A stretch of 35,837 nucleotides of DNA from Bacteroidota bacterium (GTDB lineage Bacteria; Bacteroidota; Ignavibacteria; UBA10030), in NCBI GenBank assembly GCA_016928255.1, contig JAFGLB010000156.1, positions 1 to 35,837 of the forward strand. The letters run 5' to 3'. The notes under the pieces are model-generated. The model ran no database searches and was not told where the DNA came from. It was given only the letters and a program-made list of their open reading frames with translations. Position numbers and translations under genes: made by a program. Positions 2,662-9,613 of the stretch are shown in pieces. Numbering within the stretch: the stretch's first letter is position 1; each line of letters begins with the position of its first letter.

Positions 2662-3114
2662 ATGTCTAAAATGGAGGATAATGCAATTATGGAAAGAAAA
2701 AAGATGTGCCTGGCACTTTTTAGCGGCAGTTTGGATAAGCTGACTGCAGCGGGAGTTATTCTAAGCGGTGCAGCAGCGGACGATATGGATGTGGATGTCT
2801 ATGTGCTTCTGCAAGGAGCTCGGGCATTCAAGAAAGAAATAGGCGACAATCTTGAACAGCTCTCAATGGCGGAAAATGCGAACCTGAAAAAAGAGTTTAT
2901 AGAATCTCTGAGTAGACTTAAAGTCAAGACTTGGATTGAATTTTTTAGGGAAGCTAAATCACTGACTAATGTGAAAATTCATATCTGCGGTTTAGCGGGA
3001 AAAATATGGGGCGGTGAAAAATTGGAAGATTTTGTCGATCTGGCTGATGATATATGCGGAATTAACGCTTATATTACCAGTGCACAAGAAGCGGATATTC
3101 ATTTGTTCATTTAA
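2662..3114 (+). CDS. DsrE/DsrF-like family protein (sulfur-trafficking)
   Basis: 150 aa DsrE-like fold (CLALFSGSLDKLTAAGVILSGAAADDMDVDVYVLLQGARAFKK...VKIHICGLAGKIWG) with a Cys at the typical active position. Directly upstream of tusA-like. Confidence 0.75.
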   Translation: MSKMEDNAIMERKKMCLALFSGSLDKLTAAGVILSGAAADDMDVDVYVLLQGARAFKKEIGDNLEQLSMAENANLKKEFIESLSRLKVKTWIEFFREAKSLTNVKIHICGLAGKIWGGEKLEDFVDLADDICGINAYITSAQEADIHLFI

Positions 3115-3129
3115 TTAAAAGGAAAAAAA

Positions 3130-3381
3130 ATGACCATAGAAGAATTGAAGGAATTGAAAGCAAATAAAACTGTAGATGCCCGCGGTACAGCTTGTCCCGG
3201 TCCATTGTTGGAGGCTAAAAAGACTATCGGTACTATACAGGCCGGCGATATCATGGAAGTTCTCTCGGCTGATGAAGGCAGTAAAGTGGATATTCCGAAG
3301 TGGTGCACAAAACAGGGTCATGAATACTTAGGTACGATAGAAGAGAGCGGCTATTTCAAGATATTCCTTAAAAAGAAATAG
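3130..3381 (+). CDS. TusA/SirA family sulfurtransferase
   Basis: VDARGTACPGPLLEAKKTIGTIQAGDIMEVLSADEGSKVDIPKWCTKQGHEYLG, with the characteristic CPxP motif. Confidence 0.92.
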   Translation: MTIEELKELKANKTVDARGTACPGPLLEAKKTIGTIQAGDIMEVLSADEGSKVDIPKWCTKQGHEYLGTIEESGYFKIFLKKK

Positions 3382-3386
3382 CAGGT

Positions 3387-3788
3387 GTGCCGGTGGTTAA
3401 AAAGAATAACGCCAGGATTCTCGTATTTTCTACAGAAAAAATTTCAGATCCTGCCATAGATATGGCAGGACTTTTAAAGCTGTATTATCCTTCGAAGGTA
3501 TATACTATCGCGGTACCTTGTTCCAGTGCTATTAAACCACGCTGGATTTTACATGCCTTTAACCAGGGTTTTGATGGAGTCTTTATTGCCGCCGACGGCA
3601 GTGATTGTCCCTATGGAGAGTCTTGTACTGCAAAGACCGGCATCCTGGTCAAACAAACTCATGAGTTGATGAAAGAAAAAAATATCAATCCAGCCCGCCT
3701 GAAAATGGCAGCGATTTGCTCAGTTTGCAGCGAATCGTTTGTCAAGCACATGAAAAGCTTTAATGAAGCACTGCAGAAAGGTAAATGA
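3387..3788 (+). CDS. Hydrogenase iron-sulfur subunit, MvhD-like
   Basis: 133 aa. ARILVFSTEKISDPAIDMAGLLKLYYPSKVYTIAVPCSSAIKPRWILHAFNQGFDGVFIAADGSDCPYGESCTAKTG...ICSVCSESFVKHM resembles the MvhD/FrhD-associated family. Confidence 0.8.
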   Translation: MPVVKKNNARILVFSTEKISDPAIDMAGLLKLYYPSKVYTIAVPCSSAIKPRWILHAFNQGFDGVFIAADGSDCPYGESCTAKTGILVKQTHELMKEKNINPARLKMAAICSVCSESFVKHMKSFNEALQKGK

Positions 3789-3792
3789 TTCT

Positions 3793-5100
3793 ATGGCTGC
3801 AGTTGAAAAGCTGAGTTTCGACGTACTCGTTGTGGGCGGAGGTATTGCCGGTATCGAGACAGCCATAAACCTGGGTAACAACGGGCTTAATGTTCTTTTG
3901 GTTGAAAAAGACCTGACACTGGGCGGCAAAATGATTATGCTGAGCAAAGTGTTTCCTACTTTGGATTGCGGTGCTTGCATCACCACTCCTAAGATATCTG
4001 AAGTCGCGCGTCATCCCAATGTAACTATCTTTACAAATACGGTGATAAAATCGATCAAGAAGCAAGACATGCATTATTTCAAATCTTTGCTCGTTCGCAA
4101 TCCCCGATATGTTATCGAGAGTGCATGTACCGGCTGTCAGCTGTGTGAAATGGCATGCCCGGTAGTCGTTCCGGATCAATACCAGTACGAGATGGTTGGA
4201 CGTAAAGCTGCATATATACCTTTCAGCATAGCCTGCCCGCGAGTGGCGGCTATAGATATAGAACACTGCACTTTATGCGGTGCTTGTGAACGTGTTTGTC
4301 CGCCTAAATGTATCGATTTTACTCAAGAACCTATCGAGTTCCAGGTAATTATCAAAGCGGTGATTATAGCCACCGGTTTCAATCTATTCGATCCGGCTCA
4401 AATCAAGCGTTTCCAATACGGCCAGGCTAAAAATATAATTACAGCTATGCAGATGGAGCGTCTGCTGGCGCCGACACGGCCGTATAATCACGTGCTGCGT
4501 CCGGGTGACGGAAAAATTCCCGACAAGATTGCCTATGTATTGTGTGTCGGTTCGCGTGACCGTACAGTGAACAATCCTATCTGTTCACAGATTTGCTGTA
4601 TGTATTCCATTAAGCAAGCGCAGCTTCTGATGGGTGCACTGCCTATGGCGGACGTAACTATATATTACATCAACATTCGCTCGTACGGAAAAGGATTCGA
4701 AGAATTCTACGAGCAAGCTAAAGGGATGGGTGTGAACTTTATCAAGGGCAAAGTAGGTACAATAAGTGAAAAGGAAAATGGCAGTCTTATTTTGCGTTAC
4801 GAGGATATATGTACCGGAAAACTGAAGGAAGCTGAGCATGACCTTGTTGTTTTATCGGCAGGAGTACTTGCCAATCAAGATGCGACCGGTTTTTTTTCTG
4901 ATGATCGCTGGGAGAAAGATGAGTTCCATTTTGCCAGACAAAATGATTTATTCTTCAATCCGGCTTTGAGCAGCATTGAGGGAGTTTTTCTAGCAGGCAC
5001 AACTTACGGTCCGATGGATATTCCTGATACTATACTGTCGGCAGGAGCCGCTTCTATGGAAGCGATTCGATATATCAAACAAATGGCCCTGAAGATATGA
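3793..5100 (+). CDS. HdrA/QmoA-like FAD-dependent oxidoreductase with two 4Fe-4S motifs
   Basis: FAD-binding GGGIAGIETAINLGNNGLNVLLVEKDLTLGGKM; CTGCQLCEMACP and CTLCGACERVCPPKC; C-terminal GVFLAGTTYGPMDIPDTILSAGAASMEAIRY. The supplied ORF starts at 3763, but ATG 3793 just after the mvhD-like stop is more likely. Confidence 0.85.
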   Translation: MAAVEKLSFDVLVVGGGIAGIETAINLGNNGLNVLLVEKDLTLGGKMIMLSKVFPTLDCGACITTPKISEVARHPNVTIFTNTVIKSIKKQDMHYFKSLLVRNPRYVIESACTGCQLCEMACPVVVPDQYQYEMVGRKAAYIPFSIACPRVAAIDIEHCTLCGACERVCPPKCIDFTQEPIEFQVIIKAVIIATGFNLFDPAQIKRFQYGQAKNIITAMQMERLLAPTRPYNHVLRPGDGKIPDKIAYVLCVGSRDRTVNNPICSQICCMYSIKQAQLLMGALPMADVTIYYINIRSYGKGFEEFYEQAKGMGVNFIKGKVGTISEKENGSLILRYEDICTGKLKEAEHDLVVLSAGVLANQDATGFFSDDRWEKDEFHFARQNDLFFNPALSSIEGVFLAGTTYGPMDIPDTILSAGAASMEAIRYIKQMALKI

Positions 5101-7031
5101 GCAAAAAAATCGGCGTATATATTTGCCGCTGCGGCTGCAATATCTCGGACTATGTAGATGTGGAAAAAGTTCGGGCGAGCGCAGAAAAGGAAGCAGACGT
5201 AGTTTTGGCGAAGACTATGGTATTTGCTTGCGCCGATTCAAGTCAAAAGGAGATTATAAACGATATCCAGAACGGGGTGATTAACTCTTTCGTCATAGCT
5301 TCCTGTTCGCCCAAACTGCACCTGCCTACCTTTCAGGCTGTGGCTGAGAGGGCCGGATTGAACAAGTATGAGTATGTACACGCTAATATAAGAGAGCAGG
5401 CATCTTGGGCTCATTCAGACGATAAAGAAGGCGCTACGGCTAAGGCAGTCCAATTAGTGAGAGCCGCCATTGCTAAAGTCCGTTTTGCCACAGCGATCGA
5501 GCCAATCGAGATACAGACACAGCAAGCTGTTTTGGTTATAGGTGCAGGTGTGGCAGGCATGAAAGCCGCTACATCTCTTGCTAAGATGGGAGTAAAAGTA
5601 TATCTAATTGAAAAAGAACATTTCATAGGCGGCCGAGTTGCACAGTGGGATGTTCTCTGCCTCACAGAAGAAACCGGTAAGGATTTGGTTACCCGTTTCT
5701 ATAACGATGTTGTGATGGACAAGGATATCACGCTGTTTACCGGCGCTGAGCTGATCGAAAGCAGCGGCAGTAAAGGCAACTTCAAGGTAAAGATTAAAAT
5801 CACACCGCGCTACATTAAAGATTTCTGCGAAAAGGAAAAAATGCGCCGGGCAATAGAGGTTTGCCCGGTCGAGGTAATCGATGATTTTAATTTTTCCATT
5901 ACAAAACGTAAAGCTATCTATCACAACTTTCCGAGTCAGTACCCGCTGGTTGCAGTGATCGATATGAAGAATTGTACACGCTGCGGCAAATGCGAAAAGG
6001 AATGCGATAAGATTGATTTTTCCCAGAAAGAAAAGATTATCGAGATCGATGTTGGATCGATCCTGGTTGCGACGGGATTTGACCCATACACGCCTAGAAA
6101 AGGAGAGTTTGGATATGAGGAGTATGACAATGTTATCACTTTGCCTCAGTTCAAGCGCCTGGTCGCAATCAACGACAAGGAGTTAAAATGGAATGGCCGG
6201 CAAGTTAAGACTATTGCATATATCTACTGTGTCGGCAGTCGTCAGCTGGAAGGTGAGAATAAATACTGCTCTCGCTATTGCTGCTCGACAACAATCTGTG
6301 CCGCGATCAAGGCAGGAGAAAAATTCCATGATCTTTCTCATTTTCACTTTACACGAGGTATCCGTACCTACGGCAAACAGGAAATGTTCTTCTATGAAGC
6401 CTCGAAACAAGGTCAGGTTTTTCTGCAGTCCTTTGAAGATGAACCGCCACGAGTAATGCGAAAGAACGATCGTACCATCGTTTGTATAAATGATATTCTA
6501 ACTAATCGAAGAGAGATTGAAGTTGATGCCGATCTTGTTGTACTGGTTACCGGTATGGTACCGCGTTCTCATGGACGAATCAGCGAAATCTTGAAACTCC
6601 CTCGAGGCCGGGATCGGTTTTTCAATGAAATCCATATGAAGCTCCGTCCGGTAGAAACTGTGATTGATGGTGTTACCATAGCTGGTGCCTGCCAGGGTCC
6701 GCAGAATGTCGTGGAAGCTATAAATTCCGCCCTCTCGGCAGCAATTAAATCCTACTCATTCGTCAGCCGGGATACACTGCAGGTTGAGCCGATTGTGGCC
6801 GAGATTGATGCCGGACTGTGCACATGGTGCGGAGCCTGTGCTAAAGCTTGTCCATTTGATGCTGTTACTCAAATCAACTTAGAAGGTAAAGAGATTGCCT
6901 CTGTAAACATGACAGTCTGCAAAGGGTGCGGTATGTGTCTGCCTGTCTGCCCGGTAAACGCTATCCAGTTGAAAACATTTAGTGATGATGAAGTAGAGAA
7001 GATGATCGGAGTGTTGGCCCAGGAGCTGTAA
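5097..7031 (+). CDS. HdrA/QmoB-like CoB-CoM heterodisulfide reductase subunit A family protein
   Basis: HdrA N-terminal domain (IGVYICRCGCNISDYVDVEKV...ASCSPKLHLPTFQ...ANIREQASW), FAD motif VLVIGAGVAGMKAATSLAKMG, internal CTRCGKCEKEC, C-terminal double ferredoxin CTWCGACAKACP / CKGCGMCLPVCP. Start overlaps the previous stop (ATGA). Confidence 0.88.
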   Translation: MSKKIGVYICRCGCNISDYVDVEKVRASAEKEADVVLAKTMVFACADSSQKEIINDIQNGVINSFVIASCSPKLHLPTFQAVAERAGLNKYEYVHANIREQASWAHSDDKEGATAKAVQLVRAAIAKVRFATAIEPIEIQTQQAVLVIGAGVAGMKAATSLAKMGVKVYLIEKEHFIGGRVAQWDVLCLTEETGKDLVTRFYNDVVMDKDITLFTGAELIESSGSKGNFKVKIKITPRYIKDFCEKEKMRRAIEVCPVEVIDDFNFSITKRKAIYHNFPSQYPLVAVIDMKNCTRCGKCEKECDKIDFSQKEKIIEIDVGSILVATGFDPYTPRKGEFGYEEYDNVITLPQFKRLVAINDKELKWNGRQVKTIAYIYCVGSRQLEGENKYCSRYCCSTTICAAIKAGEKFHDLSHFHFTRGIRTYGKQEMFFYEASKQGQVFLQSFEDEPPRVMRKNDRTIVCINDILTNRREIEVDADLVVLVTGMVPRSHGRISEILKLPRGRDRFFNEIHMKLRPVETVIDGVTIAGACQGPQNVVEAINSALSAAIKSYSFVSRDTLQVEPIVAEIDAGLCTWCGACAKACPFDAVTQINLEGKEIASVNMTVCKGCGMCLPVCPVNAIQLKTFSDDEVEKMIGVLAQEL

Positions 7032-7050
7032 ATAAAATGACGATAGTTTT

Positions 7051-7329
7051 ATGAAAGACGAAAAGCGGGAAACTTATAAAATAAAGCGAGACTCTTTTCA
7101 AGTCGCACAAGAAGTCAAAGACAGCTTGAAGCAGTTCAACGCCGTTAAAAAAAAGATTTTAGATGCAATGGGCAATGAGGGTTGTACTATTCCACAGATT
7201 GCCGCTCAGACGGGAATAAACCGTTCAGAAGCACTTTATTATGTTATGTCTATGCTGAAATTTGGCTGGATACAGGTAGTCGGTGTCGATGATAAGGATG
7301 AGTATTATATTTATCAAGGGAAAAAATAA
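7051..7329 (+). CDS. Small winged-helix/HTH-like protein in the Hdr-like operon
   Basis: 92 aa. AVKKKILDAMGNEGCTIPQIAAQTGINRSEALYYVMSMLKFGWIQVVGVDDKDEYYIYQ reads as an HTH plus wing. Its last bases abut the next start. Confidence 0.7.
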   Translation: MKDEKRETYKIKRDSFQVAQEVKDSLKQFNAVKKKILDAMGNEGCTIPQIAAQTGINRSEALYYVMSMLKFGWIQVVGVDDKDEYYIYQGKK

Positions 7330-8411
7330 TGTCAAGCCCGGATCTGAAATTTGGGAAAAAACTGGTAAAATACGGTGCCGTTGACTTTAACGCATGCTAC
7401 AACTGCGGGACTTGTACAGCCGTTTGCGCTCTGTCGAATGAGGAAGAATCATTTCCACGAGAAATGGTACGTTTCAGCGTTCTGGGACTCAGCGAGGATG
7501 TCAAGGGATCGCTGAAACCATGGCTTTGCTATTACTGCGGCGAATGCTCAACGCACTGTCCGCAGCTTGCTCAGCCGGGTGAGCTTATGATGTCGCTGCG
7601 ACGCTATCTTATATCCTGCTATGACTGGACCGGACTTTCCGGGCTATTGTACCGGAATCTATCAGCATATATCGCAGCTTTTCTGTTTATTGCCATAGGT
7701 ATTTTCGGATTGTTTTTCTCCGGCATTTGGAATCAGGCGGAATGGATGCATTACGGACACCTCTTTGAAATAATGGCCATTGCCTCCGTCTTTACAGTCA
7801 TTCTCCTGCCGAATATAATACGAATGTGGTACGCAACGGTTTGGAAACAGACAAAAAAACTGCATATCAAAACCTATTTTCTATCTCTCCCCGAGTTATT
7901 TATACATATGTTCACTCAGAAGCGCACTTTGTCATGTAATGATGAAATGAGCAACAAGATCTGGTGGTTTGAACATTTTATCGTCGTGATTGGCTACATG
8001 GGTTTACTGTTTACCACTGTAGTTTTGGATTGGTTCGCTGCTACAAATATATTAATTATTGTCCTTGGCTACTTTCTCAGTGCTGTAGTTTTTATTGTCT
8101 CATTTCACTTTATCTTCAATCGCATGCGTAAGAAAACGGAAAAAAGTTCTTTTTCACACCCTTCCGATTGGTTTTTTGTGATTTGGCTCTTACTAATGGG
8201 ACTTTCAGCTTGTGCTGTCAGGTTACTGATCGACCTTGGATTACTCTCAGCATACTTTTGGCTATACCTGCTACATCTTACTATACTGGTACAATGGGCT
8301 CTGGTTATTGTCCCCTTCGGGAAATGGACACATTTTCTTTATAGATCTTTTGCTATGTACTTTGATAAGATAGTTAAAGACACAGCTAATACTGCGGTTC
8401 GTACCGTCTGA
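7329..8411 (+). CDS. HdrC/QmoC-like 4Fe-4S dicluster protein with cytochrome b-like membrane domain
   Basis: N-terminal CYNCGTCTAVCAL...CYYCGECSTHCPQLAQPGELMMSLRRYLI, then several hydrophobic helices with His residues (WWFEHFIVVIGYMG, LLHLTILVQWALVIVPFGKWTHFLYRSFAMYFD). Confidence 0.85.
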   Translation: MSSPDLKFGKKLVKYGAVDFNACYNCGTCTAVCALSNEEESFPREMVRFSVLGLSEDVKGSLKPWLCYYCGECSTHCPQLAQPGELMMSLRRYLISCYDWTGLSGLLYRNLSAYIAAFLFIAIGIFGLFFSGIWNQAEWMHYGHLFEIMAIASVFTVILLPNIIRMWYATVWKQTKKLHIKTYFLSLPELFIHMFTQKRTLSCNDEMSNKIWWFEHFIVVIGYMGLLFTTVVLDWFAATNILIIVLGYFLSAVVFIVSFHFIFNRMRKKTEKSSFSHPSDWFFVIWLLLMGLSACAVRLLIDLGLLSAYFWLYLLHLTILVQWALVIVPFGKWTHFLYRSFAMYFDKIVKDTANTAVRTV

Positions 8412-8740: not shown

Positions 8741-9613
8741 ATGAATATAAGTGAGCAACTGCGCAAGAAACTGCTCGTCTTTCAAAAAAATGAAATAACC
8801 GAGCATCACATCTACACAAAGCTGGCGAAGAGGATCAAGGTTCCTGAGAATTGCCGGATACTGGAAAACATAGCCGAACAGGAATTACAGCATTACCATA
8901 CCTGGCGAACTTATACAAAACAGGATGTACAACCATCGACTTGGAGAATCTGGAAATATTATTGGATCAGCCGTATCTTCGGATTTACCTTCGGCGTCAA
9001 GCTGATGGAACGCGGGGAGGAAGATGCTCAGGGCAGTTATGAGCAGCTGAAAGACGTTATTCCCGAAGCAGAAGCCGTCATACGTGAAGAGAACCAACAT
9101 GAGACAGCTTTGCTCAAACTGCTGGACGAAGAAAAGCTGCGTTACACAGGTTCAATGGTTTTGGGCCTGAATGATGCACTGGTGGAGCTAACCGGTGCAC
9201 TGGCGGGTCTGACTTTAGCACTACAAGATACAAAGCTGATTGCCCTGACAGGTTCTATCACCGGCATTGCGGCCGCATTGTCGATGGGAGCATCCGAGTA
9301 CCTGTCAACGCGTGCCGAGGAAACTGTAAAGAATCCGTTGAGGGCGTCGATTTATACAGGCGTGACCTATCTGGTCACTGTGCTGCTTCTAATTTTGCCT
9401 TATCTGATTCTAGAAAATTACTATTTATGTTTAGGCTGCACGCTGGCCGAGGCTATTATAATCATTGCCTTGTTCAACTATTACATCTCGGTAGCCATGG
9501 ATAAACCGTTCGGAAAGCGATTTCTTGAGATGGCCGGATTGAGCCTGGGCATTGCAGCGTTCAGTTTCTTTATAGGCTTTCTTATGCGCACTTTTCTGCA
9601 TATTGATATCTGA
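8741..9613 (+). CDS. Ferritin-like domain / VIT1-CCC1 family membrane iron transporter fusion (MbfA/Er-VIT-like)
   Basis: N-terminal ferritin/rubrerythrin-type helices (NEITEHHIYTKLAKR, IAEQELQHYHTW, EEDAQGSYEQL, REENQHETALL). C-terminal VIT1 motifs (LGLNDALVELTGALAGLTLAL...GIAAALSMGASEYLSTRAE). Confidence 0.85.
   Translation: MNISEQLRKKLLVFQKNEITEHHIYTKLAKRIKVPENCRILENIAEQELQHYHTWRTYTKQDVQPSTWRIWKYYWISRIFGFTFGVKLMERGEEDAQGSYEQLKDVIPEAEAVIREENQHETALLKLLDEEKLRYTGSMVLGLNDALVELTGALAGLTLALQDTKLIALTGSITGIAAALSMGASEYLSTRAEETVKNPLRASIYTGVTYLVTVLLLILPYLILENYYLCLGCTLAEAIIIIALFNYYISVAMDKPFGKRFLEMAGLSLGIAAFSFFIGFLMRTFLHIDI

Follow-up and report, generated by a model that had tools for sequence, protein, structure and literature searches.

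A conserved operon linking DsrE and TusA to a Qmo-like complex is a candidate membrane-bound sulfane-sulfur:menaquinone oxidoreductase

Results

Organization of the gene cluster

We analyzed a 35,837-nt stretch of DNA, here called the window, from a Bacteroidota bacterium of the class Ignavibacteria (UBA10030; GCA_016928255.1). The window is contig JAFGLB010000156.1 (C208) of a 3.16-Mb assembly that is 96% complete, with a reported contamination of 0.17%. It holds a set of seven genes at positions 2662–8411, in which two sulfur carriers, DsrE and TusA, precede the components of a Qmo-like electron-transfer complex. All seven open reading frames (ORFs) were confirmed on the + strand with neighbors spaced by −26 to +19 nt, and, judged by this spacing, the genes are one operon. 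The initial annotation of the locus had described seven tightly packed same-strand genes of these families, and the ORFs, coordinates, spacing and hidden Markov model (HMM) scores all agreed with it. The features are as follows.

2662–3114, + strand: DsrE-family sulfur carrier (PF13686, 36.9 bits; cut-off 25)
3130–3381, + strand: TusA sulfur carrier with a CPGP motif (PF01206, 82.9 bits)
3387–3788, + strand: MvhD/FlpD-like protein with rearranged cysteines, a separate gene of 133 amino acids (PF02662, 97.7 bits)
3763–5100, + strand: short HdrA-type flavoprotein (QmoA-like) with two [4Fe-4S] motifs and the HdrA CX12CX3CC motif (HdrA models, 454 bits)
5097–7031, + strand: HdrA-type flavoprotein (QmoB-like) with an HdrA N-terminal domain and a C-terminal 2x[4Fe-4S] domain, lacking a fused FlpD (HdrA models, 555 bits)
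7051–7329, + strand: winged-helix protein with a conserved acidic DDxDEY wing (AlphaFold model, mean predicted local distance difference test (pLDDT) 89.6)
7329–8411, + strand: QmoC-type subunit, an HdrC-like 2x[4Fe-4S] domain fused to a multi-helix cytochrome b domain (qmoC model NF038018, 148 bits; cut-off 300)
2526–2554, + strand: candidate sigma-70-like promoter 5' of the operon, TTGAAT-17-TATAAT, a weak match from a consensus scan in which an equal number is expected by chance

Alignment placed two of the starts further downstream. The DsrE start is likely at 2689, giving 141 amino acids (150 in the full ORF) that begin with a conserved MExKK after GGAGG, and the QmoA-like gene probably starts at 3793 rather than 3763. 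The DsrE product scored 22.9 bits on the DsrE2 equivalog NF047629, below its threshold of 210, and falls in the wider PF13686 family. The TusA product has both the PF01206 match and the Cys-Pro-x-Pro motif that define TusA. As the initial annotation had also stated, no gene for HdrB (CCG), DsrAB, AprAB or LbpA was seen in the window.

Conservation of the cluster in other genomes

When GTDB genomes were searched with a QmoA alignment, at least 583 relatives were confirmed. The best 80 loci were retrieved, and their gene order was determined with profile HMMs built from them. Since the 80 loci were chosen by QmoA similarity, the conservation described here applies to that subfamily. The order DsrE(a or b)-TusA-FlpD-QmoA-QmoB-winged helix-QmoC was found in 67 of the 80 loci. 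All but one of the others lie near a contig end, and the exception (L133) lacks DsrE. Almost all loci that are not truncated have DsrE and TusA at the same place in the operon, and the winged-helix gene is in the cluster of 74. The association of DsrE and TusA with the Hdr genes is therefore conserved, and the survey ruled out an oddity specific to the window: the system is real and ordered, as first described, but it is not the singular case that the description of one locus had presented.

The carriers among the best 80 are mostly Bacteroidales, together with Aminicenantes, Krumholzibacteriota and Chlorobiota records. Carriers include Dysgonomonadaceae and the cultured Prolixibacter denitrificans (DSM 27267) and Seramator thermalis. 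Of 295 genomes sampled from the order to which one Bacteroidetes carrier belongs, about 37 (about 12%, or roughly one in eight) have a strong QmoC orthologue (at least 378 bits). The class to which the window belongs also has a remote version of the cluster, with TusA first, DsrE last and a QmoC of about 30–33% identity; TusA is present even in the remote L057 version. Two variants of the layout were seen in passing. Paludibacter-type loci (L083, L076, L087 and L089) have a DsrE-type lipoprotein-like gene of 158–165 amino acids between the QmoA-like and QmoB-like genes. At L056 (8956–13428), in the same class as the window, two HdrA-type modules are fused into a protein of 1490 amino acids that adjoins QmoC-like and MvhD-like genes, which is another membrane Hdr variant.

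Relationship to canonical Qmo

Phylogenetic trees were quick ones, built without sulfate-reducer and archaeal Qmo sequences. In the tree of HdrA-type proteins, the QmoA-like and QmoB-like proteins of the cluster formed their own clades, apart from the AprBA-linked QmoA and QmoB, which grouped together. The QmoB-like protein sat with HdrA, and neither subunit joined canonical Qmo. The approximately unbiased (AU) test rejected a grouping of the cluster A protein with canonical QmoA (p-AU 0.00124) and of the cluster B protein with canonical QmoB (0.00435). The flavoproteins, which the initial annotation called both HdrA-type and QmoA/QmoB, are HdrA-derived and not QmoA/QmoB orthologues. The QmoA-like protein scored 362 bits against a methanogen HdrA chain and 215–239 bits against canonical QmoA, values from different searches of which only the gap is meaningful. 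The cluster QmoC also formed its own clade and reached 146–148 bits on the qmoC model, under its cut-off, whereas AprBA-linked QmoC from the same phylum and from Bacteroidales reached 395–498 bits.

We then considered the genomes around the cluster. Among the 31 carrier genomes tested, dsrAB was found in none and aprA in five. In the four of these whose aprBA locus was read (L152–L155; genomes G433, G427, G444 and G446), a canonical qmoABC lies beside aprBA, away from the cluster described here. The presence of two separate complexes in one genome disfavors a role of the cluster in adenosine 5'-phosphosulfate (APS) reduction. All five aprA carriers, which are Bacteroidales-type genomes with G435 as the fifth, lack dsrAB and Sat and have CysD. 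CysD is usually assimilatory, and a complete thiosulfate-disproportionation pathway in these five genomes was rejected on this ground and for the missing Sat. In L152 and L154, a small four-helix-bundle-like gene lies between aprB and aprA.

In the window genome, searches found no NIR_SIR protein (dsrAB or assimilatory sulfite reductase), no AprA, no Sat, no CysD and no YeeE/YedE, and control genomes gave matches in the same searches (for AprA, the Chlorobiota genome G082). Canonical Qmo identity is thus ruled out by the tree, the AU test, the NCBIfam cut-off and the lack of aprA in the genome. The distinction from ordinary Qmo drawn in the initial annotation held, with the flavoproteins branching outside canonical QmoAB and neither NIR_SIR nor AprA in the genome.

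Conserved residues of the cluster proteins

The residues expected of the sulfur carriers and of the electron-transfer subunits are largely conserved. DsrE Cys109 (numbered on the 150-residue ORF) is invariant in all 36 cluster DsrE sequences, and TusA Cys22 is kept in 100% of 61 sequences. In 57 QmoC-type sequences, all eight [4Fe-4S] ligand cysteines and His144, His216 and His335 are invariant, and three further histidines exceed 90%. The QmoA-like protein keeps every [4Fe-4S] ligand without exception, those of the HdrA CX12CX3CC motif among them. The HdrA motif is also invariant in the QmoB-like protein, where the C-terminal cluster motifs are 97–100% conserved and the first ferredoxin motif (C293–C303) is present in about 70–75%.

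FlpD departs from this pattern. Its model has the MvhD fold (TM-score about 0.8) at moderate confidence (mean pLDDT 75.6), and five cysteines, Cys45, Cys74, Cys80 and the CxxC pair 111/114, are invariant across 75 sequences. However, relative to canonical MvhD/QmoB, the N-terminal cysteine and the GC cysteine are lost and two canonical cysteines are retained, while Cys80 and the CxxC pair are new; the cluster FlpD thus does not carry the canonical [2Fe-2S] cysteine ligand set. In the remote versions L057 and L058, FlpD retains the CxxC alone. Because just two canonical cysteines are left, a standard [2Fe-2S] site is not assured. The CxxC may be a redox thiol pair or else part of a new cluster site. 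The initial annotation had assigned a full electron-transfer chain to the operon: the subunits are indeed present, but the ligand loss in FlpD means that the complete chain cannot be assumed.

The winged-helix protein has no conserved cysteine, its recognition helix is only 12% Lys/Arg and its wing is conserved and acidic. These features suggest that it is probably a bound accessory subunit of the complex rather than a classical regulator. The best structural matches of its AlphaFold model are general winged-helix folds. An ArsR-type persulfide sensor was ruled out by the lack of conserved cysteine and by the composition of the recognition helix.

Neighboring genes and regulation

A Crp/Fnr-family gene, recognized by eye from the sequence, accompanies 54 of the 80 loci, mostly divergent and just upstream. 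A Crp-type operator, TGTGA-N6-TCACA, was found in 33 of 48 upstream regions, and palindromes neither overlapping nor similar to it reached 4. In L061, L102 and similar Bacteroidales loci, the upstream regulator has N-terminal cysteine residues and the operator is present. A sulfur regulon under a Crp/Fnr regulator is possible in the Bacteroidales loci. It is not present in the window, where the Crp gene is absent and an operator search gave nothing above chance.

The flanking genes vary. In some marine-type Bacteroidales, genes for a YedE sulfur transporter, for rhodanese lipoproteins and a two-domain rhodanese, and for a porin come directly before the operon. In other Bacteroidales loci, PhsA-, PsrB- and NrfD-like genes come directly after it, together with a further YedE. 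The survey of the 80 neighborhoods found no other oxidoreductase gene broadly conserved beside the cluster.

Genomic context in the window organism

The nearest relatives of the window cluster among the best 80 loci are from an Aminicenantes metagenome-assembled genome (85% identity over QmoA) and from Bacteroidales. A close QmoC orthologue was absent from five genomes of the same genus and 26 further genomes of the same family. Across 396 genomes of the phylum, the other QmoC matches were much weaker and consisted of versions with 30–38% identity and the family of G082, whose QmoC is canonical and AprBA-linked. Immediately 3' of the operon, at 8741–9613, lies a Rubrerythrin-like plus VIT-family coding region, which is absent in the 30 relatives examined. 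Since the close QmoC orthologue and the VIT-type neighbor are both missing in relatives, the operon was probably acquired horizontally. The proportion of G and C is slightly raised over the operon (0.44–0.46 vs. about 0.40). A contig binning error is a less likely source of the cluster in this genome, for which the reported contamination is low, as given above.

Three further observations were made in the window and its genome. A truncated low-molecular-weight phosphatase-like ORF of 77 amino acids lies just 5' of the operon (2147–2380) and is possibly an insertion remnant. Two small genes at 244–823 on the − strand resemble, by eye, a RelE/ParE-type toxin-antitoxin module. Contig C203 of the same genome (L036, 561–12834) carries a four-subunit sulfhydrogenase-type [NiFe] hydrogenase adjoining HdrC-HdrB-HdrA-MvhD, and a second [NiFe] hydrogenase; this Hdr/Mvh set is a separate system of the same organism.

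Discussion

We propose that the product of the operon is a membrane-bound sulfane-sulfur:menaquinone oxidoreductase, fed by TusA and DsrE and most likely working reductively, a reading to which we give a probability of about 0.55. Its core, a sulfur-carrier-coupled, membrane-bound Hdr-like complex, had been put forward in the initial annotation and is strongly supported by the conserved DsrE/TusA neighborhood and the branching outside Qmo. From the conserved active cysteines and from what is known of their families, DsrE and TusA would carry sulfur as cysteine persulfide. The persulfide would be handed to a cytoplasmic module of the two HdrA-type flavin adenine dinucleotide/[4Fe-4S] subunits and the modified FlpD. 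The QmoC-type subunit has the architecture to anchor this module to the membrane, and its [4Fe-4S] clusters and b haems would serve the exchange of electrons with menaquinone. Sulfur derived from polysulfide, elemental sulfur or thiosulfate would then leave as sulfide. Menaquinol donates poorly to persulfide, and the reaction would therefore have to draw on proton-motive force or on a second electron source of low potential that acts through the HdrA flavins. The window organism would have gained the operon without the Crp-type regulator, the operator and the YedE importer of its relatives.

Four points weigh against this proposal. At standard potentials, the transfer of electrons from menaquinol to persulfide is energetically unfavorable. 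The non-cubane cluster of HdrB, at which Hdr is known to cleave disulfides, has no counterpart in the complex. Some of the ligands that normally bind the [2Fe-2S] cluster are missing in FlpD, so that its link to the flavoproteins is uncertain. Finally, the window genome has no YeeE/YedE.

For the net direction alone, we put the odds of reduction at roughly even. Reduction is favored because the hosts are fermentative, reductase genes are found nearby, the sulfite-forming HdrB/LbpA site is missing and sulfur reduction is reported in Petrimonas. This genus, a relative of the Dysgonomonadaceae carriers, has been reported to reduce elemental sulfur (PMC9695182). The opposite direction seems unlikely to us: in an SQR-like or sHdr-like manner, sulfide or carrier-bound sulfane sulfur would be oxidized and give electrons to menaquinone through the complex, and fumarate, nitrate or extracellular acceptors would finally receive them. 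The transfer of electrons from sulfide or persulfide to menaquinone is thermodynamically easier, import by YedE and rhodanese recalls oxidative systems, and aprA with CysD in five carriers could oxidize sulfite. However, sHdr-like sulfite formation would require the HdrB and LbpA that are lacking here, dsrAB is absent and aprA is missing in most carriers. In addition, fermentative groups of Bacteroidales account for many of the hosts, and PhsA/Psr-like reductase genes lie 3' of the operon in some loci.

A speculative and rather doubtful extension of the reductive proposal concerns FlpD. Instead of carrying electrons on a [2Fe-2S] cluster, this protein could have come to act through its thiols, with the CxxC accepting persulfide from TusA or DsrE. 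An HdrB-less, Qmo-like membrane complex would thereby perform persulfide/disulfide chemistry against menaquinone and would represent a new class of sulfur reductase. If so, it would explain cytoplasmic sulfane-sulfur reduction in Bacteroidales without Dsr.

We regard it as improbable that the cluster is an ordinary type II Qmo-like complex with another cytoplasmic oxidoreductase as its true partner, bifurcating or confurcating electrons with ferredoxin or NADH, and that DsrE and TusA form a separate relay for persulfide homeostasis or cofactor sulfuration. Bifurcating Hdr modules typically have HdrA-type flavins and an MvhD fold, and Neukirchen et al. (2023; PMC10504309) report that type II Qmo occurs both in genomes that have Apr/Dsr and in genomes that lack them. 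Against this stand the nearly fixed position of DsrE and TusA, with TusA kept even in the remote version, and the lack of another broadly conserved oxidoreductase gene alongside. That the cluster is a canonical QmoABC donating electrons to APS reductase is exceedingly improbable, and as a general role already refuted: the matching layout of two HdrA-like proteins and a QmoC is outweighed by the position outside the canonical clades (AU p 0.001 and 0.004), the QmoC score of 148 bits vs. 395–498, the absence of aprA in its own genome and the separate-locus canonical Qmo in carriers holding aprBA.

A quinone-linked complex acting on carrier-bound sulfur is a candidate for sulfur use without a classical sulfite reductase. 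Digesters, sediments and oil reservoirs harbor anaerobic Bacteroidales in large numbers, some of them sulfur reducers, yet the tested carriers of the cluster lack the Dsr pathway. The operon thus provides a concrete candidate for sulfur-reducing activity in these organisms.

Comparison with known systems

Canonical (type I) QmoABC likewise has two HdrA-type flavoproteins and an HdrC-cytochrome b subunit. There, FlpD is fused in QmoB (703–750 amino acids) and the genes are linked to AprBA, whereas here FlpD is separate, the linkage is to DsrE and TusA, and the proteins belong to other clades. The methanogen HdrABC-MvhAGD and its bacterial versions, such as the one on contig C203, share the HdrA and MvhD folds with the cluster. 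They have HdrB and a hydrogenase; the cluster has neither, and its FlpD cysteine set is altered.

In the sulfur-oxidizing sHdr complex, an HdrA-type protein is also supplied by a DsrE/TusA relay (PMC12423496). That system is cytoplasmic and includes HdrB1/B2, HdrC1/C2, the lipoate-binding protein LbpA and DsrE3, whereas the present one has none of the HdrB/HdrC pairs or LbpA but a membrane cytochrome b subunit. Identity with sHdr was rejected on the absence of HdrB (CCG) and LbpA from the window and from the conserved cluster of its relatives. The YTD cluster (YedE, TusA and type II DsrEFH; PMC12998232, PMC13293266) shares TusA and a DsrE-type protein, and YedE is nearby in some relatives. Its definition comprises YedE, TusA, DsrE and two or three conserved hypothetical proteins; the window operon has no DsrF/DsrH-type gene, and its genome no YedE, but it has a Qmo-like redox complex and so falls outside the YTD definition.

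A literature search of incomplete coverage found no description of a TusA/DsrE-coupled Qmo-like complex in Bacteroidales. The product of the operon seems to be a membrane complex not described before, in which electrons are exchanged between the quinone pool and carrier-held sulfur. The closest likeness is to type II Qmo, which combines HdrA-like QmoAB with QmoC and had no assigned function in 2023 (Neukirchen et al., PMC10504309, in the part consulted). The operon descriptions in that part of the source mention no TusA, DsrE, separate FlpD, winged-helix protein or Bacteroidales. The cluster has the type II hallmarks, namely proteins in the QmoAB positions that are nearer to HdrA than to canonical QmoAB and a QmoC-type subunit, and so fits the published description of type II Qmo, which is known from Vulcanisaeta and Ammonifex. 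Our proposal thus offers a possible role for the HdrA-like type II Qmo complexes.

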